From positions 1 to 11,035 of the forward strand of contig CALUJT010000050.1 in assembly GCA_944321005.1 (NCBI GenBank): 11,035 nt of DNA. The letters run 5' to 3'. Below the pieces are notes generated by a model. The model was not told the origin of the DNA. It saw only the letters and a list, made by a program, of their open reading frames with translations, and searched no databases. The stretch is from an uncultured Atopobiaceae bacterium. Its GTDB lineage: Bacteria; Actinomycetota; Coriobacteriia; Coriobacteriales; Atopobiaceae. The translations under genes and the position numbers were made by a program. This document shows positions 3,935-9,508 of the stretch, in pieces (positions within the stretch are counted from its first letter, which is position 1; every line of letters starts with the position of its first letter).

Positions 3935-4366
3935 CTAGCGCTCGGCCTGCTCCTTGATCTTGCCGGAGAGCACGAGGCACGCGATCGCGAAGACGATCGA
4001 GACGACGTACGTGACGCTCTGGGCGCCCACGCCGTCCATCGCCACGCCGAGCAGCATGCCGACCACGGCAAAGATCACGGCGATCAGGCTCATCACGCGG
4101 AAGGGGCCGATCTTGCGCGGCGTGTTGGCGCCGCGAATGCCCGCGCCCGCGTAGATGAGGTAGAAGACGCCGGAGACGATGCCCCAGACGCCGAACGCCG
4201 CGGCCCATGGGAGCAGCGGGAACTCGTAGCCGCCCACGATGGCGACGTCGCTTGCGGAGAGCGTGCCCGCCCCGGCGAGGACGAGCCCGCCGAACGCGAG
4301 GCACGCGATGGCGTCGAGGACGTACAGGAAGCAGATGACCTTGAGGAGCTTGCGCTCTTTTGACAT
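3935..4366 (-). CDS. Small four-helix membrane protein of unknown function
   Basis: I do not recognise this 143-residue protein as a characterised family. It shows four hydrophobic segments (about 8-33, 51-77, 91-110 and 117-135) and short basic ends (MSKERK at the start, KIKEQAER at the end). The loop between helices 2 and 3 is GIRGANTPRKIGPFR (76-90), which looks like a family signature because it is polar and Gly/Pro-rich rather than random. The start at ATG 4366 has AAGGAGG six bases upstream; a longer frame from 4432 lacks a ribosome site and reads through the promoter. It is transcribed away from the ligase gene and has its own terminator (3879-3909). A role in the membrane is all that can be said. 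Confidence 0.75.
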   Translation of the reverse strand: MSKERKLLKVICFLYVLDAIACLAFGGLVLAGAGTLSASDVAIVGGYEFPLLPWAAAFGVWGIVSGVFYLIYAGAGIRGANTPRKIGPFRVMSLIAVIFAVVGMLLGVAMDGVGAQSVTYVVSIVFAIACLVLSGKIKEQAER

Positions 4367-4461
4367 GGGGTCCCTCCTTGGAGAGAGAACGGGCGCGGCC
4401 CCGCGCTCCGCTGGCTTCAACTGACGGGACAACTATACAGCGAAGCCAGACGGGAGCCCCC

Positions 4462-4467
4462 TATAAT
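4462..4467 (+). promoter_or_regulatory. -10 box of the ligase-hexosaminidase operon
   Basis: TATAAT, a perfect -10 hexamer, lies 34 bases before the ligase start codon. The -35 position 17 bp upstream (AGCGAA) is poor, so an activator or a weak promoter is possible. On the minus strand TATAGT (4437-4432) is a candidate -10 for the divergent small membrane-protein gene, also without a good -35. The box contains the ATG of the longer ligase reading, which argues against that start. Confidence 0.5.
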
Positions 4468-4501
4468 GAGCTGTTACGCTAATTTCGACGAGAGGCAGGG
4501 C

Positions 4502-5548
4502 ATGACCAGGGTCGCACTTCTCTTCGGCGGCATCTCGACCGAGCACGACATCTCCTGCAAGTCCGCGGACAACGTGATCAAGGCGCTGAGCGGCCGCTTT
4601 GACCTCGTCCTCATCGGCATCACCCGGGAGGGGAGGTGGCTGCGCTACTCCGGCGACCCGTCCGAGGTCACCGGCGCCTGGGAGGGGCACGACTGCTCGC
4701 CCGTGGCGGCGGTCCCCGGGGGCGGGCTCGTGGAGCTCTCCGCGGAGGGGGCCGTGCGTCCACTTTCCGTTGACGTCGCGCTCCCCGTCCTCCACGGGCA
4801 GGGTGGCGAGGACGGGACGGTCCAGGGCGCGTTCGAGGTGGCAGGCGTGCCCTATGTGGGCTGCGGCGTCATGGCAAGCGCCGTGTGCATGGACAAGGAC
4901 GCGTCGCACCGCCTGGCGGCCTCCGCCGGCGTCAGGTCCCCGCGCTGCGAGGTCCTCTGGCGCGGATGCACGGCCGAGGAGCGCGCCCGTGCCGTGGAGT
5001 CCTGCGGCGGCTTCCCCGTGTTCGTCAAGCCGGCGCGCGGCGGCTCCTCCATCGGCGTCTCGCGAGCGGCGGACCGCGCGGCCTACGACTCCGCCGTCGA
5101 CGCCGCCTTCGAGCTCGACGAGAAGGTGGCCGTGGAGGAGGCCATCACCGGCGTCGAGGTGGGCTGCGCCATCGTGGGCGACGCGGTGCGCGGGACCTGG
5201 ATGGGCGAGCCCGACGAGATCGTGGTCTCCGGGGACGGCTTCTTCAGAATCCACCTGGAGAAGGACCCGGGCGCCAACACCGAGCTGCGCTGCCCCGCCG
5301 CCCTGCCTGATGACGTGATGGGGCGCGTGCGCGCCGCCGGCACGGCGGTCTACGAGGCCCTGGGCTGCGAGGGCCTCGCGCGCGTGGACCTCTTCGTCAC
5401 GCCCGAGGGGGAGGTCGTCTTCAACGAGGTCAACTCCATGCCCGGCCTCACGTACTACTCGCGCTTCCCGCAGATGATGCGTGTCGCCGGCCACGAGCTC
5501 GGGGACGTTCTCGCGGGGCTGATCGAGGACCGTCTGGCGCGCGCCTAG
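4502..5548 (+). CDS. D-alanine-D-X ligase (Ddl/Van family) with VanA-like omega loop
   Basis: This ATP-grasp enzyme joins D-Ala to a second D-residue for the peptidoglycan stem. It has 348 residues, normal for Ddl/Van ligases. Visible motifs are LFGGISTEHDIS (7-18), HGQGGEDGTVQG (98-109), VCMDKD (128-133), the ATP-binding KPARGGSSIGVS (176-187), GCEGLARVDLF (288-298) and the Mg-binding FNEVNSMPG (307-315). The omega loop reads FFRIHLEKDPG (247-257). D-Ala-D-Ala ligases usually have a Lys-Tyr motif here, whereas VanA and VanB have FRIHQE; H251 aligns with VanA His244, a residue tied to D-lactate use. ATG 4502 is chosen because AGAGG lies six bases upstream and the alternative ATG 4466 is inside the -10 box. 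No vanH, vanX or vanRS gene is in the window, so it may be the housekeeping ligase. The hexosaminidase follows 27 bp downstream. Confidence 0.9.
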   Translation: MTRVALLFGGISTEHDISCKSADNVIKALSGRFDLVLIGITREGRWLRYSGDPSEVTGAWEGHDCSPVAAVPGGGLVELSAEGAVRPLSVDVALPVLHGQGGEDGTVQGAFEVAGVPYVGCGVMASAVCMDKDASHRLAASAGVRSPRCEVLWRGCTAEERARAVESCGGFPVFVKPARGGSSIGVSRAADRAAYDSAVDAAFELDEKVAVEEAITGVEVGCAIVGDAVRGTWMGEPDEIVVSGDGFFRIHLEKDPGANTELRCPAALPDDVMGRVRAAGTAVYEALGCEGLARVDLFVTPEGEVVFNEVNSMPGLTYYSRFPQMMRVAGHELGDVLAGLIEDRLARA

Positions 5549-5575
5549 CCGCGCCCTTCGCAAAGGAGAGACAAG

Positions 5576-6823
5576 ATGCAGAGAACCGCCAACATCACCC
5601 GCCGTGGCGCCGTCGCGTCCGCGGGCGCGATTCTCGCCCTCGCGCTGGGCGCCTGCTCCGACGAGGGCGTCGAGCAGGAGGAGACGGGCGGCCGCGGCGA
5701 GGCCGGAACCGTGAGCGACCGCGCCCCCGAGACCGGTGACGAGCCCCAGGAGGGCGAGGGGGCCGAGGAGACGGTGTCCGAGGTCGACAGGATCGTCTCC
5801 CAGATGACGCTCGAGCAGAAGGTCGCCCAGCTCTTCGTGGTGCGTCCCGAGGCCATAACGGGCGTGGGGACCGCCACCGCGGCGGGGGAGACCACGCGCC
5901 AGGCCCTTCTCGACATGCCGGTGGGCGGCATCGTCTACTTTGCCGCCAACCTCGTCGACACCGACCAGACGCGCGAGATGCTGCGCAACACCGCGACGTA
6001 CGCCGAGGAGGCGAGCGGCCTTCCCATCTTCCTCTGCGTGGACGAGGAGGGCGGCACGGTCTCGCGCGTGGGCGGAAACCCCGGCTTCGGCGTGGACAAC
6101 GTGGGCAACATGTGCGACGTGGGGGCCACGGGCGACGCCTCCTACGCCCGGGAGGTGGCCAAGCACATAGGCACCTACCTCCAGTACCTGGGCTTCAACG
6201 TTGACTTTGCGCCGGATGCGGACATCGCCAACAATCCGGAGAGCGACACCATGAGCCTGCGCTCCTTCGGCACCACCGTCGATGCCGTGGCGCCGATGGT
6301 CAAGGCGCAGGTGGAGGGCTTTGCCGAGGCGGGCGTCCTCTGCTCGGCCAAGCACTTCCCCGGCATCGGCGGCGCGATGGGCGACTCCCACGACGGCCGC
6401 ATCTACTCCGAGAAGACCCTCGACGAGATTCGCGCCGAGGAGCTCAGGCCCTTCGAGGCCGCCATAGAGGCGGACGTCCCCTTCGTCATGGTTGGCCACC
6501 TCTCTATGCCCACCATCACCGGCGACGGCGACCCCGCCACCATCTCCAGCGAGATCATCACCGACCTCCTGCGAAACGAGCTCGGCTACCAGGGCATCAT
6601 CATCACCGACTCCATGGCGATGGGGGCTGCCCTCGAGTCGCTGACGCTGGACCGCCTCGGCGTGGCGCCGCTTCTCGCCGGCGCCGACATGGTGCTCATG
6701 CCCGAGGATCTCCAGGCGGCGTACCAGGGCGTCCTTGACGCCGTGGCAGCCGGCGAGCTCACCGAGGAGCGGATCGACGAGTCCGTGCGCCGCGTCGTGA
6801 GGACCAAGCTCGAGCGACTGTAG
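5576..6823 (+). CDS. nagZ: GH3 beta-N-acetylhexosaminidase lipoprotein (NagZ-like)
   Basis: This is a glycoside hydrolase family 3 enzyme that removes terminal N-acetylglucosamine from muropeptides or other glycans. It has 415 residues. A lipoprotein signal ends in LGAC with the lipidated Cys at 27; TRR at 8-10 gives only a weak hint of Tat export. A Glu/Gly-rich linker runs to about residue 68. The catalytic barrel follows, with DEEGG (156-160), KHFPG (259-263), the acid/base Asp-His pair in GDSHDG (D270, H272) and the nucleophile D345 in IITDSMAMG. The Asp-Ser-His loop separates NagZ-type enzymes from beta-glucosidases. It should be anchored outside the cell, as in Gram-positive homologues. 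AAAGGAGAG lies just before ATG 5576. The 27-bp gap makes it an operon with the ligase. A strong hairpin repeat follows the stop. Confidence 0.88.
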   Translation: MQRTANITRRGAVASAGAILALALGACSDEGVEQEETGGRGEAGTVSDRAPETGDEPQEGEGAEETVSEVDRIVSQMTLEQKVAQLFVVRPEAITGVGTATAAGETTRQALLDMPVGGIVYFAANLVDTDQTREMLRNTATYAEEASGLPIFLCVDEEGGTVSRVGGNPGFGVDNVGNMCDVGATGDASYAREVAKHIGTYLQYLGFNVDFAPDADIANNPESDTMSLRSFGTTVDAVAPMVKAQVEGFAEAGVLCSAKHFPGIGGAMGDSHDGRIYSEKTLDEIRAEELRPFEAAIEADVPFVMVGHLSMPTITGDGDPATISSEIITDLLRNELGYQGIIITDSMAMGAALESLTLDRLGVAPLLAGADMVLMPEDLQAAYQGVLDAVAAGELTEERIDESVRRVVRTKLERL

Positions 6824-6844
6824 GGGGTCTCGGGCCTGCCGGTT

Positions 6845-6862
6845 GGGGATGAGAGCGTCCCC
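6845..6862 (+). terminator. Weak hairpin after the hexosaminidase gene
   Basis: GGGGA (6845-6849) pairs with TCCCC (6858-6862), with a G-U pair next inside. No T-run follows. It may contribute to termination or be a decayed copy of the GGGGAC palindromes seen elsewhere. Confidence 0.3.
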
Positions 6863-6868
6863 TCCCGC

Positions 6869-6945
6869 CAATGTACAGAAAAGTCGGACTTCCCCGGCGC
6901 CCATCAGGGAAATCGCACGGGGAAGTCCGACTTTTCTGTACATTG
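6869..6945. repeat. 28-bp-arm inverted repeat between convergent genes
   Basis: Arms 6869-6896 and 6918-6945 are exact reverse complements; the left arm begins CAATGTACAGAAAAGTCGGA and ends CTTCCCCG. The 21-base spacer can pair further (GCG with CGC, CCC with GGG), giving one long hairpin. It lies between the convergent hexosaminidase and ATPase genes, about 45 bases and 18 bases from their stops, so it could end transcription from both sides. It lacks the usual GC stem with trailing T-run. Its right flank matches part of the repeat at 8885-8955, so a related mobile palindrome is likely. Confidence 0.9.
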
Positions 6946-6963
6946 AGGAAGAGGCCTGGGCGG

Positions 6964-8874
6964 CTAGTTCTTCTCGACGCGCATGCAGCGCATGGCGTTG
7001 AGGATGGCGATGATGGCCACGCCCACGTCGCCGAAGACGGCGAGCCACATGTTTGCCACGCCGAGGGCGGCGAGCACCAGGATGAGAATCTTCACGCCCA
7101 GCGCGAAGACGATGTTCTGCCACACGATGCGCATGGTCTTTCTCGCGACGCGCATGGCCGACGCGATCTTGGAGGGGCGGTCGTCCATGAGGACGACGTC
7201 GGCGGCCTCGATGGCGGCGTCCGAGCCCATGGCGCCCATGGCGATGCCCACGTCGGCGCGCATGAGCACGGGGGCGTCGTTGATGCCGTCGCCCACGAAG
7301 GCCAGGCGCGCGCCGTCCCCCTCGCCCGCGAGCAGGTGCTCCATGGCATCGACCTTGTCCTGGGGGAGAAGCTGCGCGCGGACCTCGTCGATTCCCAGGC
7401 GCGTGGCCACTGCCTCGGCCACGTCCCGGCGGTCGCCGGTGAGCATGACGCAGCGTCGCACGCCGGCGGCATGAAGGTCGCGGACGGCCTCCTCGGCGTC
7501 CTCCTTCACCACGTCGGCGATCACGATGTGCCCCACGTACTCGCCGTCGACCGTGACGTGCAAGATCGTGCCCGTGAGGTCGCAGTCGTGCCAGGCGGCC
7601 CCGTGCTCGGCCATGAGCTTGTCGTTGCCCACGAGGACCAGGTGCTCGTTCACGCGGGCGCTCACGCCGTGGCCGGACTCCTCCCGCGCATCGGCGATCT
7701 TCTCGCGGTCGATCTCTCCGGAGTAGGCGGCGCGCACGGAGACGGCGATGGGGTGGTCCGAGAAGGACTCGGCGTGCGCCGCCATGGAGAGCACGTAGTC
7801 AGGGTCCACGCCTGCCTCCGGGTGAATGGCCACCACGTTGAAGGTGCCGCTCGTGAGCGTGCCCGTCTTGTCGAAGACCACGGTGTCCACGTGCGCGAGG
7901 AGCTCGAGGTAGTTGGAGCCCTTCACGAGGATGCCCAGGCGAGAGGCGCCGCCGATGCCGCCGAAGAACGAGAGCGGCACGGAGATGACGAGCGCGCACG
8001 GGCAGCTCACGACGAGGAAGGTGAGGCCGCGCAGGACCCAGTCCGACCAGAGTCCCATGCCCGCGAGCGGGGGGATCACCGCGAGCGCGAGCGCGGAGAG
8101 CGTGACCGCCGGCGTGTAGACGCGAGCGAAGCGGGTGATGAAGTTCTCGGTGCGGGCCTTCTTCTCGCTCGCGTTCTCCACGAGCTCGAGGATGCGCGAG
8201 ACGGTTGACTCGCCGTAGGGCCTGGTCGTGCGCACGCGCAGGACGCCGGTCATGTTGACGCAGCCGGAGATGACGTCGGCGCCGGGCTCCACGTGGCGCG
8301 GGACGGACTCGCCGGTGAGCGCCGCGGTGTCGAGCTGGGAGACGCCGTCTGCCACCACTCCGTCGAGGGGCACGCGCTCGCCGGGCTTCACCACGATGAC
8401 GGTTCCGGGGGCAACCTCGGCGGGGTCGACCTGCTCGAGCCCGCCGTCCCCCTCGACGTTGGCGTACTCGGGCGCGATGTCCATCATGGCGGCGATGGAC
8501 TTCCTGCTCTGACCCACGGCGTAGCTCTGGAAGAGCTCTCCCACCTGGTAGAAGAGCATGACGGCGGCACCCTCCGCCATGTGGGGCTCGGTCTCGGGGA
8601 AGAGGACCATCGCAAAGGCCCCGAGGGACGCCACCGACATGAGGAACGCCTCGTCGAAGGGGTCTCCGCGACGGATGTTGCGCGCCGCCTCGAGCAGGGT
8701 CTTGTAGCCTGCGATGAGGTAGGGGACGAGGAACAGGGCAAAGCTCGCATAGACGTCCCCCGGCGTGCCGAACGCCCTGGCGAGGAGCCCCGTCTCCTCC
8801 ACGACCATCACGGCCGCGAAGATGGCGAGCGCAACGATGATGCGGTTGCGCCACTTGATCTGCTTCTTGTTCAC
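6964..8874 (-). CDS. P1B-2 type Zn/Cd/Pb exporting ATPase without N-terminal HMA domain
   Basis: This is a heavy-metal P-type ATPase of the ZntA/CadA class that pumps Zn(II), Cd(II) or Pb(II) out of the cell. From the chosen start it has 636 residues. Motifs in order are TGES (187-190), the transmembrane metal site CPC (291-293), the phosphorylated Asp in DKTGT (D335), the HP pair (374-375), TGD (479-481) and GDGINDAP (528-535). In the last helices Lys595 and Asp616 (VKIL, FGDVG) are the P1B-2 signature and argue against a copper pump. No CxxC metal-binding domain precedes the first helix; a separate gene upstream supplies one. GTG 8874 follows GAGGAG at five bases. The upstream ATG at 8913 is rejected because its first residues translate the inserted palindrome. 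Third gene of the arsR operon. Confidence 0.93.
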   Translation of the reverse strand: MNKKQIKWRNRIIVALAIFAAVMVVEETGLLARAFGTPGDVYASFALFLVPYLIAGYKTLLEAARNIRRGDPFDEAFLMSVASLGAFAMVLFPETEPHMAEGAAVMLFYQVGELFQSYAVGQSRKSIAAMMDIAPEYANVEGDGGLEQVDPAEVAPGTVIVVKPGERVPLDGVVADGVSQLDTAALTGESVPRHVEPGADVISGCVNMTGVLRVRTTRPYGESTVSRILELVENASEKKARTENFITRFARVYTPAVTLSALALAVIPPLAGMGLWSDWVLRGLTFLVVSCPCALVISVPLSFFGGIGGASRLGILVKGSNYLELLAHVDTVVFDKTGTLTSGTFNVVAIHPEAGVDPDYVLSMAAHAESFSDHPIAVSVRAAYSGEIDREKIADAREESGHGVSARVNEHLVLVGNDKLMAEHGAAWHDCDLTGTILHVTVDGEYVGHIVIADVVKEDAEEAVRDLHAAGVRRCVMLTGDRRDVAEAVATRLGIDEVRAQLLPQDKVDAMEHLLAGEGDGARLAFVGDGINDAPVLMRADVGIAMGAMGSDAAIEAADVVLMDDRPSKIASAMRVARKTMRIVWQNIVFALGVKILILVLAALGVANMWLAVFGDVGVAIIAILNAMRCMRVEKN

Positions 8875-8884
8875 GACTACTCCT

Positions 8885-8955
8885 CTGCAAATTGGGGACA
8901 GTCCCCAATTCACATAAAACTTTTCTGCAAATTGGGGACTGTCCCCAATTTGCAG
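8885..8955. repeat. Composite double palindrome inside the metal efflux operon
   Basis: Palindrome 1 (8890-8910) is AATTGGGGAC-A-GTCCCCAATT with 10-bp arms. Palindrome 2 (8925-8955) has 15-bp arms, CTGCAAATTGGGGAC and its complement around one T. The two also form a larger inverted repeat, 8885-8910 against 8930-8955, with exact 26-base arms and a 19-base spacer. TCTGCAAATTGGGGAC is a direct repeat at 8884 and 8924. This two-REP-plus-spacer plan is that of a REPIN. It begins two bases after the HMA stop and its edge touches the ATPase ribosome site, so it probably inserted into the operon and may tune ATPase expression or mRNA stability. Confidence 0.9.
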
Positions 8956-8957
8956 GG

Positions 8958-9176
8958 CTAGCGGACGATCTCGCAGTCGGGCTCGATCTCGGCGGTGCGG
9001 GCGACAACGCGGTCGAGCACCTCGTCGAAGCGTCCGTCCGCGGCGCAGAGCGTGAGCTTCTGCGTCATGAAGTTCACGGAGACTTCGTCGACGCCGTCAA
9101 GCCTGCCGAGCGCGTCCTGGAGCTTGCGGGCGCAGTTGGCGCAGTCGATCTCGTCGAGCCTGAATGACTTTCGCAT
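8958..9176 (-). CDS. Stand-alone HMA-domain metal-binding protein
   Basis: This is a 72-residue heavy-metal-associated domain protein with the beta-alpha-beta-beta-alpha-beta ferredoxin-like pattern. The metal site is DCANC (C12 and C15). An acidic residue before the first Cys is what ZntA-type N-terminal domains carry, whereas copper chaperones usually have GMTC, so Zn, Cd or Pb is the likely ligand. Such domains are normally fused to the ATPase; here the domain is separate, like CopZ for copper, and the ATPase downstream lacks its own. It may carry metal to the pump or act as a buffer. AGGAGG lies four bases before ATG 9176 and overlaps the arsR stop codon (TAGGAGG), so translation is coupled to arsR. 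A composite palindrome follows its stop. Confidence 0.88.
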   Translation of the reverse strand: MRKSFRLDEIDCANCARKLQDALGRLDGVDEVSVNFMTQKLTLCAADGRFDEVLDRVVARTAEIEPDCEIVR

Positions 9177-9184
9177 GGTTCCTC

Positions 9185-9508
9185 CTATTCGCAGATGTGG
9201 GACATGCCCTGGTTGAGCATCGTGTAGACGTGGTCGTCCGCGAGCGAGTAGACGACGTTGCGGCCGTCGCGCTGGAACTTCACCAGGCGCGCCTGCTTGA
9301 GGGTGCGCAGCTGGTGGGAGACGGCGCTCTGCGTGCTCCCGGTCTGCTCGGCGATGTCCGCGACGCAGAGCTCGCGGCCCATGAGGGCAAAGAGGATCTT
9401 GATGCGCGTGGTGTCGCTGAAGACCTTGAAGAGGTCGGCGAGGTCGTAGAGCAGCTCCTCGTCCGGCATCTCGTCGGGCGTCTCCCCAACGGTCAGCTTC
9501 TCCGCCAT
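9185..9508 (-). CDS. ArsR/SmtB-family zinc-responsive repressor
   Basis: This is a winged-helix homodimeric repressor of the SmtB/CzrA group, 107 residues long. The recognition helix region is STQSAVSHQLRTL (58-70), followed by the wing FQRDGRNVVYSL. The alpha-5 metal site is complete: D91-x-H93, ten residues, H104 and E107, the pattern of Zn(II) sensors. E107 is the final residue of the protein. The alpha-3 region reads ELCVAD with one Cys, so the CadC-type cysteine site is incomplete. Metal binding should release it from DNA and switch on the operon, which it heads. ATG 9508 has GGAAGGAG five bases upstream; the longer frame from 9547 begins inside the operator. Two 20-bp operators lie upstream, giving autoregulation. 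Confidence 0.92.
   Translation of the reverse strand: MAEKLTVGETPDEMPDEELLYDLADLFKVFSDTTRIKILFALMGRELCVADIAEQTGSTQSAVSHQLRTLKQARLVKFQRDGRNVVYSLADDHVYTMLNQGMSHICE

Follow-up and report, generated by a model that had tools for sequence, protein, structure and literature searches.

Glycopeptide producers and soil bacteria are the usual candidates for the origin of the ligases in acquired glycopeptide-resistance (van) clusters, and His244 of VanA is said, in the paper on its crystal structure, to govern the preference for lactate. Chromosomal relatives have also been described: lactic acid bacteria possess intrinsic D-Ala-D-Lac ligases of the Phe-type Ddl (PMC5996685), and the 'house-keeping' Ddl of Coriobacteriales have been placed with VanA (PMC8698665). 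We analyse here a stretch of 11,035 nucleotides from an uncultured Atopobiaceae bacterium (the window; assembly GCA_944321005.1, contig CALUJT010000050.1, forward strand), which contains a gene for a Van-type D-Ala-D-X ligase with the loop motif FRIH. In our preferred reading, to which we give a probability of about 0.55, this gene would encode an accessory chromosomal Van-type ligase whose acceptor pocket is of the D-lactate type and whose role lies outside resistance. It seems to be a natural relative of the resistance ligases and not a functioning resistance gene.

The Coriobacteriales Ddl set of PMC8698665 probably contains the FRIH clade, which is described here, with its pocket and its loci, as a patchily distributed second ligase in genomes that also have a near-universal one. 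Like the lactic acid bacteria enzymes (PMC5996685), the window ligase is intrinsic and chromosomal, and the depsipeptide that is known for them is proposed for it; it differs from these Phe-type ligases by its His loop, by the second, ordinary Ddl of its genome and by two susceptible carriers of the clade. The features of the gene are the following:

4502..5548, + strand: Van-type D-Ala-D-X ligase of the FRIH clade, with an alternative upstream ATG at 4466
5240..5275, + strand: VanA-like omega loop FFRIHLEKDPGA, from alignments, FRIH being found in 117 of the best 120 homologues
5252..5254, + strand: codon of His263, the equivalent of VanA His244, from alignment
5456..5458, + strand: codon of Tyr331, the equivalent of VanA Tyr315, outside the loop and common to VanA-type ligases

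The open reading frame extends over 4466-5548 (+ strand) and its product has 360 residues, or 348 from the likelier ATG at 4502. As a TATAAT at 4462-4468 overlaps the upstream ATG, 4502 may be the true start; no sigma-70-like site was found in a promoter scan of positions 4300-7000. Both ATP-grasp ligase domains, N- and C-terminal, score above their Pfam cut-offs (PF07478, 166.3 against 24; PF01820, 106.6 against 34.6). The omega loop corresponds to residues 259-270 of the 360-residue product. It had been called VanA-like in an earlier reading of the letters alone (hereafter the sequence-only reading), which placed it at 247-257, the same residues numbered from the ATG at 4502; this is confirmed by our alignments, as is the absence of the Lys-Tyr motif of ordinary Ddl, FFRIHLEK standing in its place. 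The VanA translation used to align His263 starts 19 residues early, His244 thus being in column 263. The acceptor pocket is the VanA set, with Ile262-His263-x-Glu265, Pro268, Asn271 and Tyr331 as the counterparts of VanA I243, H244, E246, P249, N255 and Y315. The further motifs cited as nearer to the Van branch (ITREGRW, VCMDKD, EVGCAI and GLARVDLF) are indeed present, but their value as Van markers is weak, CMDKD being also found in VanG and in Salmonella DdlA; judged from the alignments, Tyr331 is a better second marker.

The VanA-type His and Tyr are kept in nearly all of the best 120 of 7,879 homologues (71-95% identity): the three that lack FRIH have FAIH, and Tyr is present at the VanA Tyr315 equivalent in 119, the last one giving no motif match. 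FRIH is read in 34 and FAIH in 2 of 36 named loci, and the 24 carrier genomes of the class have FRIH (21) or HIH (3). Among the matches listed for each known type (n = 120), F[RK]IHQE is found in 114 and Tyr at 315 in 115 of the VanA-type ones, and FD[YF]xEKY in 118 of the VanG-type ones, whose position 315 is His in 104, Met in 1 and Tyr in 1, with no motif match in 14. I243, E246, P249 and Y315 are common to the VanA-type and FRIH ligases and occur in 0 of 14 VG rows and 0 of 17 DDL rows. The ratio of non-synonymous to synonymous substitution rates (dN/dS) between the window gene and 14 relatives is 0.125-0.403, and by this measure the gene is under purifying selection, with its reading frame intact. 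Because of this selection, and because FRIH or FAIH is kept in the best 120 homologues, the loop is not a product of chance; going by these counts, it marks a clade present in some Coriobacteriia.

The assembly comprises 2.24 Mb in 294 contigs, of which the window is C50, and is 85% complete; its closest named relatives are Olsenella and Thermophilibacter records (the ligase of Olsenella sp. An285 is 93% identical). A second ddl, whose existence the sequence-only reading had raised as a question, is found in this assembly on contig C1; its loop is of the Lys-Tyr type (YDLKVKYEP), and it scores 327.6 bits with the Ddl subfamily model NF002378. The window gene is a second D-Ala-D-X ligase and not the housekeeping enzyme. 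At the class level, some ligase match is found in 194 of 197 genomes and the FRIH clade, defined by about 60% identity or more, in 24 of 197, own genome included; each of these 24 carriers has at least two ligase matches, a match of the second type being present in all of them. Within the window's genus, the clade is found in 21 of 31 genomes and a ligase match of the other type (31-38% identity, its loop read from the window's own genome) in 31 of 31. Among the matches listed for 296 sampled genomes of the phylum, none from outside the class had more than 47% identity.

No model match to vanH, vanX, vanR or vanS was obtained among the twelve genes of the window, some of them scanned against Pfam only, which agrees with the sequence-only reading in that neither vanH nor vanX adjoins the ligase. 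Similarly, a search for vanX (PF01427) gave no match in the own assembly, at its 85% completeness, or in the other 23 carriers; the 8 of 197 class genomes with PF01427 matches include no carrier. A single alanine racemase match and no VanXY match were obtained in the own genome. The locus is not a VanA-type cassette. Two strains that carry FRIH ligases have been published as susceptible: Enorma massiliensis phI to vancomycin (L030; PMC3746427), and Collinsella bouchesdurhonensis Marseille-P3296 with minimum inhibitory concentrations of 1 ug/ml for vancomycin and 0.016 ug/ml for teicoplanin (L021; PMC6182551). The literature also gives Enorma timonensis as susceptible (PMC4149031) and an Olsenella uli isolate as unable to grow on vancomycin chocolate agar (PMC8889775); their genomes are outside those read here and they are not used as evidence.

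As the acceptor pocket has the VanA set, the ligase would probably join D-Ala to D-lactate or to a different D-2-hydroxy acid, either exclusively or alongside D-Ala. D-lactate is plausible in this genome, because it contains a VanH-family D-2-hydroxyacid dehydrogenase, on another contig than the ligase (C13; L150:1490-2473), and a LarA-like gene of the lactate racemase family (C5:2109-2714, E 8.4e-64). The dehydrogenase scores 276.9 bits with the VanH model NF000492 (cut-off 540) against 211.3 with the best generic D-lactate dehydrogenase model, both below cut-off. The housekeeping Ddl would meanwhile keep producing D-Ala-D-Ala, with no VanX to remove it, so that enough D-Ala-D-Ala termini would be made for the cell to stay susceptible to glycopeptides. 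The substrate, the product and the role of the window ligase are what we infer from its sequence and that of its genome.

The place of the clade relative to the known families was addressed with models and a tree. The Van-type ligases are split from Ddl with a support of 100/99 with the loop columns and 100/98 without them, bearing out the earlier placement nearer to the Van branch. In this tree, which is drawn without VanD, VanC/E/L/N and the named actinobacterial VanHAX ligases, FRIH ligases form one clade with VanA, VanB and VanM (99/89) when the loop columns are kept; this clade is not recovered without them (approximately unbiased test, p 0.55), the branching order of VanA, VanG and FRIH then being unresolved. 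The candidate status of sister group of VanA depends on the loop columns and is not robust once these are dropped. The sequence-only reading had stated that it would be contradicted by a placement within ordinary Ddl, with FRIH widespread in susceptible relatives making only D-Ala-D-Ala: FRIH is indeed common in relatives, two carriers of which are susceptible, but the clade lies outside ordinary Ddl.

Compared with VanA/VanB/VanM-type ligases (PDB 1e4e; NF000206), the window ligase is 39-41% identical and has neither vanH, vanX nor vanRS beside it. Compared with VanG-type D-Ala-D-Ser ligases (PDB 4fu0; NF000091), which give its best PDB sequence score (277.8 bits, barely above the 276.6 for an ancient VanA), it lacks the FD[YF]xEKY loop and has Tyr instead of His at 315. 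Several results weigh against a D-lactate-type ligase. The D-Ala-D-Lac model NF000206 gives 308.2, below its cut-off of 550 and lower than both the VanG model NF000091 (346.7, the best NCBIfam score of the protein, itself below a cut-off of 495) and the Ddl subfamily model NF002528 (329.8, above its cut-off of 262); the Ddl model TIGR01205 is also exceeded (268.9; cut-off 245.65). Leu replaces VanA Gln245 and the EKGS stretch is absent, and over the 25 columns that separate VanA from VanG, FRIH ligases agree with VanG at 12, with VanA at 8 and with neither at 5. The structure model is uncertain in the loop, the predicted local distance difference test (pLDDT) being below 50 for residues 263-265. 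Finally, a VanH-grade dehydrogenase is found in 18 of 24 carriers and in 6 of 8 non-carriers, with a line (E < 1e-45) that was drawn after the scores were seen, and of the 6 carriers without it, only G161 has a strong LarA match. D-lactate supply was consequently dropped as a co-occurring partner, the dehydrogenase being untied to the ligase and LarA patchy over these 32 genomes.

Alternatively, the gene may encode an isozyme, a second ligase that has kept an ancestral His loop, makes mainly D-Ala-D-Ala and is used at another pH or growth phase. The score above the NF002528 cut-off, the agreement of many discriminating columns with VanG or Ddl, the susceptibility of two carriers, the failure to find vanX in carriers and the indifference of the dehydrogenase to the ligase would all fit; since the Lys-Tyr loop is absent, the VanA-type His and Tyr pair is kept in nearly all of the best 120 homologues and each of the 24 carriers in the class survey has a second-type ligase match, we consider the isozyme unlikely, though the nearest of the alternatives. 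A VanG-like choice of second substrate, D-Ser or a different D-amino acid, is less probable still. It would account for the best NCBIfam score, for the 49% identity of the window protein to a Subdoligranulum VanG-type ligase and for the clade members clustered with a VanT-type serine racemase in L073 and L074 (see below). However, the VanG loop and the VanG His at 315 are both missing, the own genome has a single alanine racemase and no VanXY match, and each of the two vanG-type clusters already has a VanG-type ligase.

The least probable explanation, with very small odds in our estimate, is that the gene is a glycopeptide-resistance determinant in its native host, or the decayed remnant of one. 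The VanA-like pocket and the two genomes in which a vanG-type cluster has captured a clade member, one of them with vanR-vanS-like genes ahead of it, are what a determinant might look like; a remnant is at odds with an intact gene under purifying selection, and a working determinant with two susceptible carriers, with the failure to find vanX in 24 carriers and with the lack of vanR, vanS and vanH among the window genes (the flanks of other carriers having been clustered and partly named). The most likely reading remains an accessory, D-lactate-type ligase with a non-resistance role.

A clade member is in fact found within a vanG-vanXY-vanT cluster in two genomes of different families, G195 (Atopobiaceae, the window's genus) and Collinsella sp. 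An2 (Coriobacteriaceae). In both, vanT is in two parts, a membrane half and a racemase half, with the FRIH ligase between them, and a Subdoligranulum VanT matches both flanking halves. The features are:

L073:5611-12729: G195 cluster
L073 5611-6309: VanR-like
L073 6257-7501: VanS-like
L073 7618-8679: VanG-like ligase with the loop FDFHEKY
L073 8676-9404: VanXY-like
L073 9394-10437: VanT membrane half
L073 10455-11528: FRIH ligase
L073 about 11539 to 12729: VanT catalytic half
L031:5164-10275: Collinsella sp. An2 cluster (same DNA in L074)

All the cluster proteins are below the van model cut-offs, the nearest being the VanT-G C-terminus (423.3 of 460); the racemase is above a general alr model and the ligases are above a Ddl subfamily model. 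Despite the different families, 5305 bases of L073 and L074, from the vanS end to the racemase, are 94.2% identical, and among 395 genomes of the order only G195 and An2 give a VanXY match above 90% identity. Complete vanR-vanS-like genes are present only in G195; in the 17-19 kb read for An2, VanR was not found and only the last ~51 residues of VanS were matched. This gene content suggests a control of the captured cluster by VanRS in G195 alone. In the tree, both captured ligases fall within the chromosomal Coriobacteriaceae members, in a set of 18 rows supported at 97/95 and with nearest joins of 96/69 and 91/62, so that the cluster probably took its FRIH gene from these; on this sequence evidence, a vanG-type cluster has acquired a clade member at least once. 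Searches of open-licence PMC papers turned up no account of vanG-type clusters in which the second ligase is of FRIH type. VanG-type ligases, 40-41% identical to the window gene, are also present in another family of the order (L078 from G156 and L079 from G054), a VanT membrane-part match adjoining the one in L078.

One tentative possibility, which we hold with less confidence than the reading of the window gene itself, is that the FRIH ligases are true D-Ala-D-2-hydroxyacid ligases (D-Lac type) that gut Coriobacteriia have kept, serving a purpose other than resistance by giving mixed wall termini, and forming a gene pool for resistance clusters such as those of G195 and An2. If so, a single captured cluster could make both D-Ala-D-Ser and D-Ala-D-Lac. 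As far as our literature searches go, three points about the clade are new: it is a patchy second ligase in which the pocket is that of VanA, it has susceptible carriers without vanX, and it occurs in two vanG-type clusters. With an orphan ligase of VanA pocket, intact and selected in gut commensals and already taken up by a vanG-type cluster, the origin and non-resistance role of van ligases become testable. Given the published susceptibility of two carrier strains, finding a VanA-like ligase in a metagenome should not be equated with resistance.

The other genes around the ligase were compared over 37 loci (the window and L007-L042). The neighbours in the window include:

5576..6823, + strand: glycoside hydrolase family 3 (GH3) beta-N-acetylhexosaminidase-like protein (PF00933), 27 bases downstream of the ligase, with a lipoprotein signal inferred by eye
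6964..9508, - strand: Zn/Cd-type P-type ATPase, HMA protein and ArsR regulator, a landmark near the ligase in both families

The ATPase cluster is near the ligase in 30 of the 37 loci. In Atopobiaceae, the ligase is mostly located between a folate-type energy-coupling factor (ECF) cluster and the ATPase-HMA-ArsR block, which is likewise near it in many Coriobacteriaceae loci, where FKBP adjoins instead. Eight ligase-free sites, from 7 of the 10 genus genomes without the ligase and from G195 at the place where the gene usually lies, all retain the ATPase, GH3 and FolT genes (8/8). As the neighbours are in place at these sites, the ligase is an accessory gene at a fixed site. The hexosaminidase, which the sequence-only reading had paired with the ligase, was for its part rejected as a functional partner, since it stays without the ligase at all eight sites and its position is taken by glutaredoxin or FKBP in other carriers; GH3 belongs to the site and is no specific partner of the ligase. 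On the minus strand, an M19 dipeptidase, a conceivable stand-in for VanX, is encoded at positions 1397-2419 of the window, and such a gene is near the ligase in 11 of the 37 loci.
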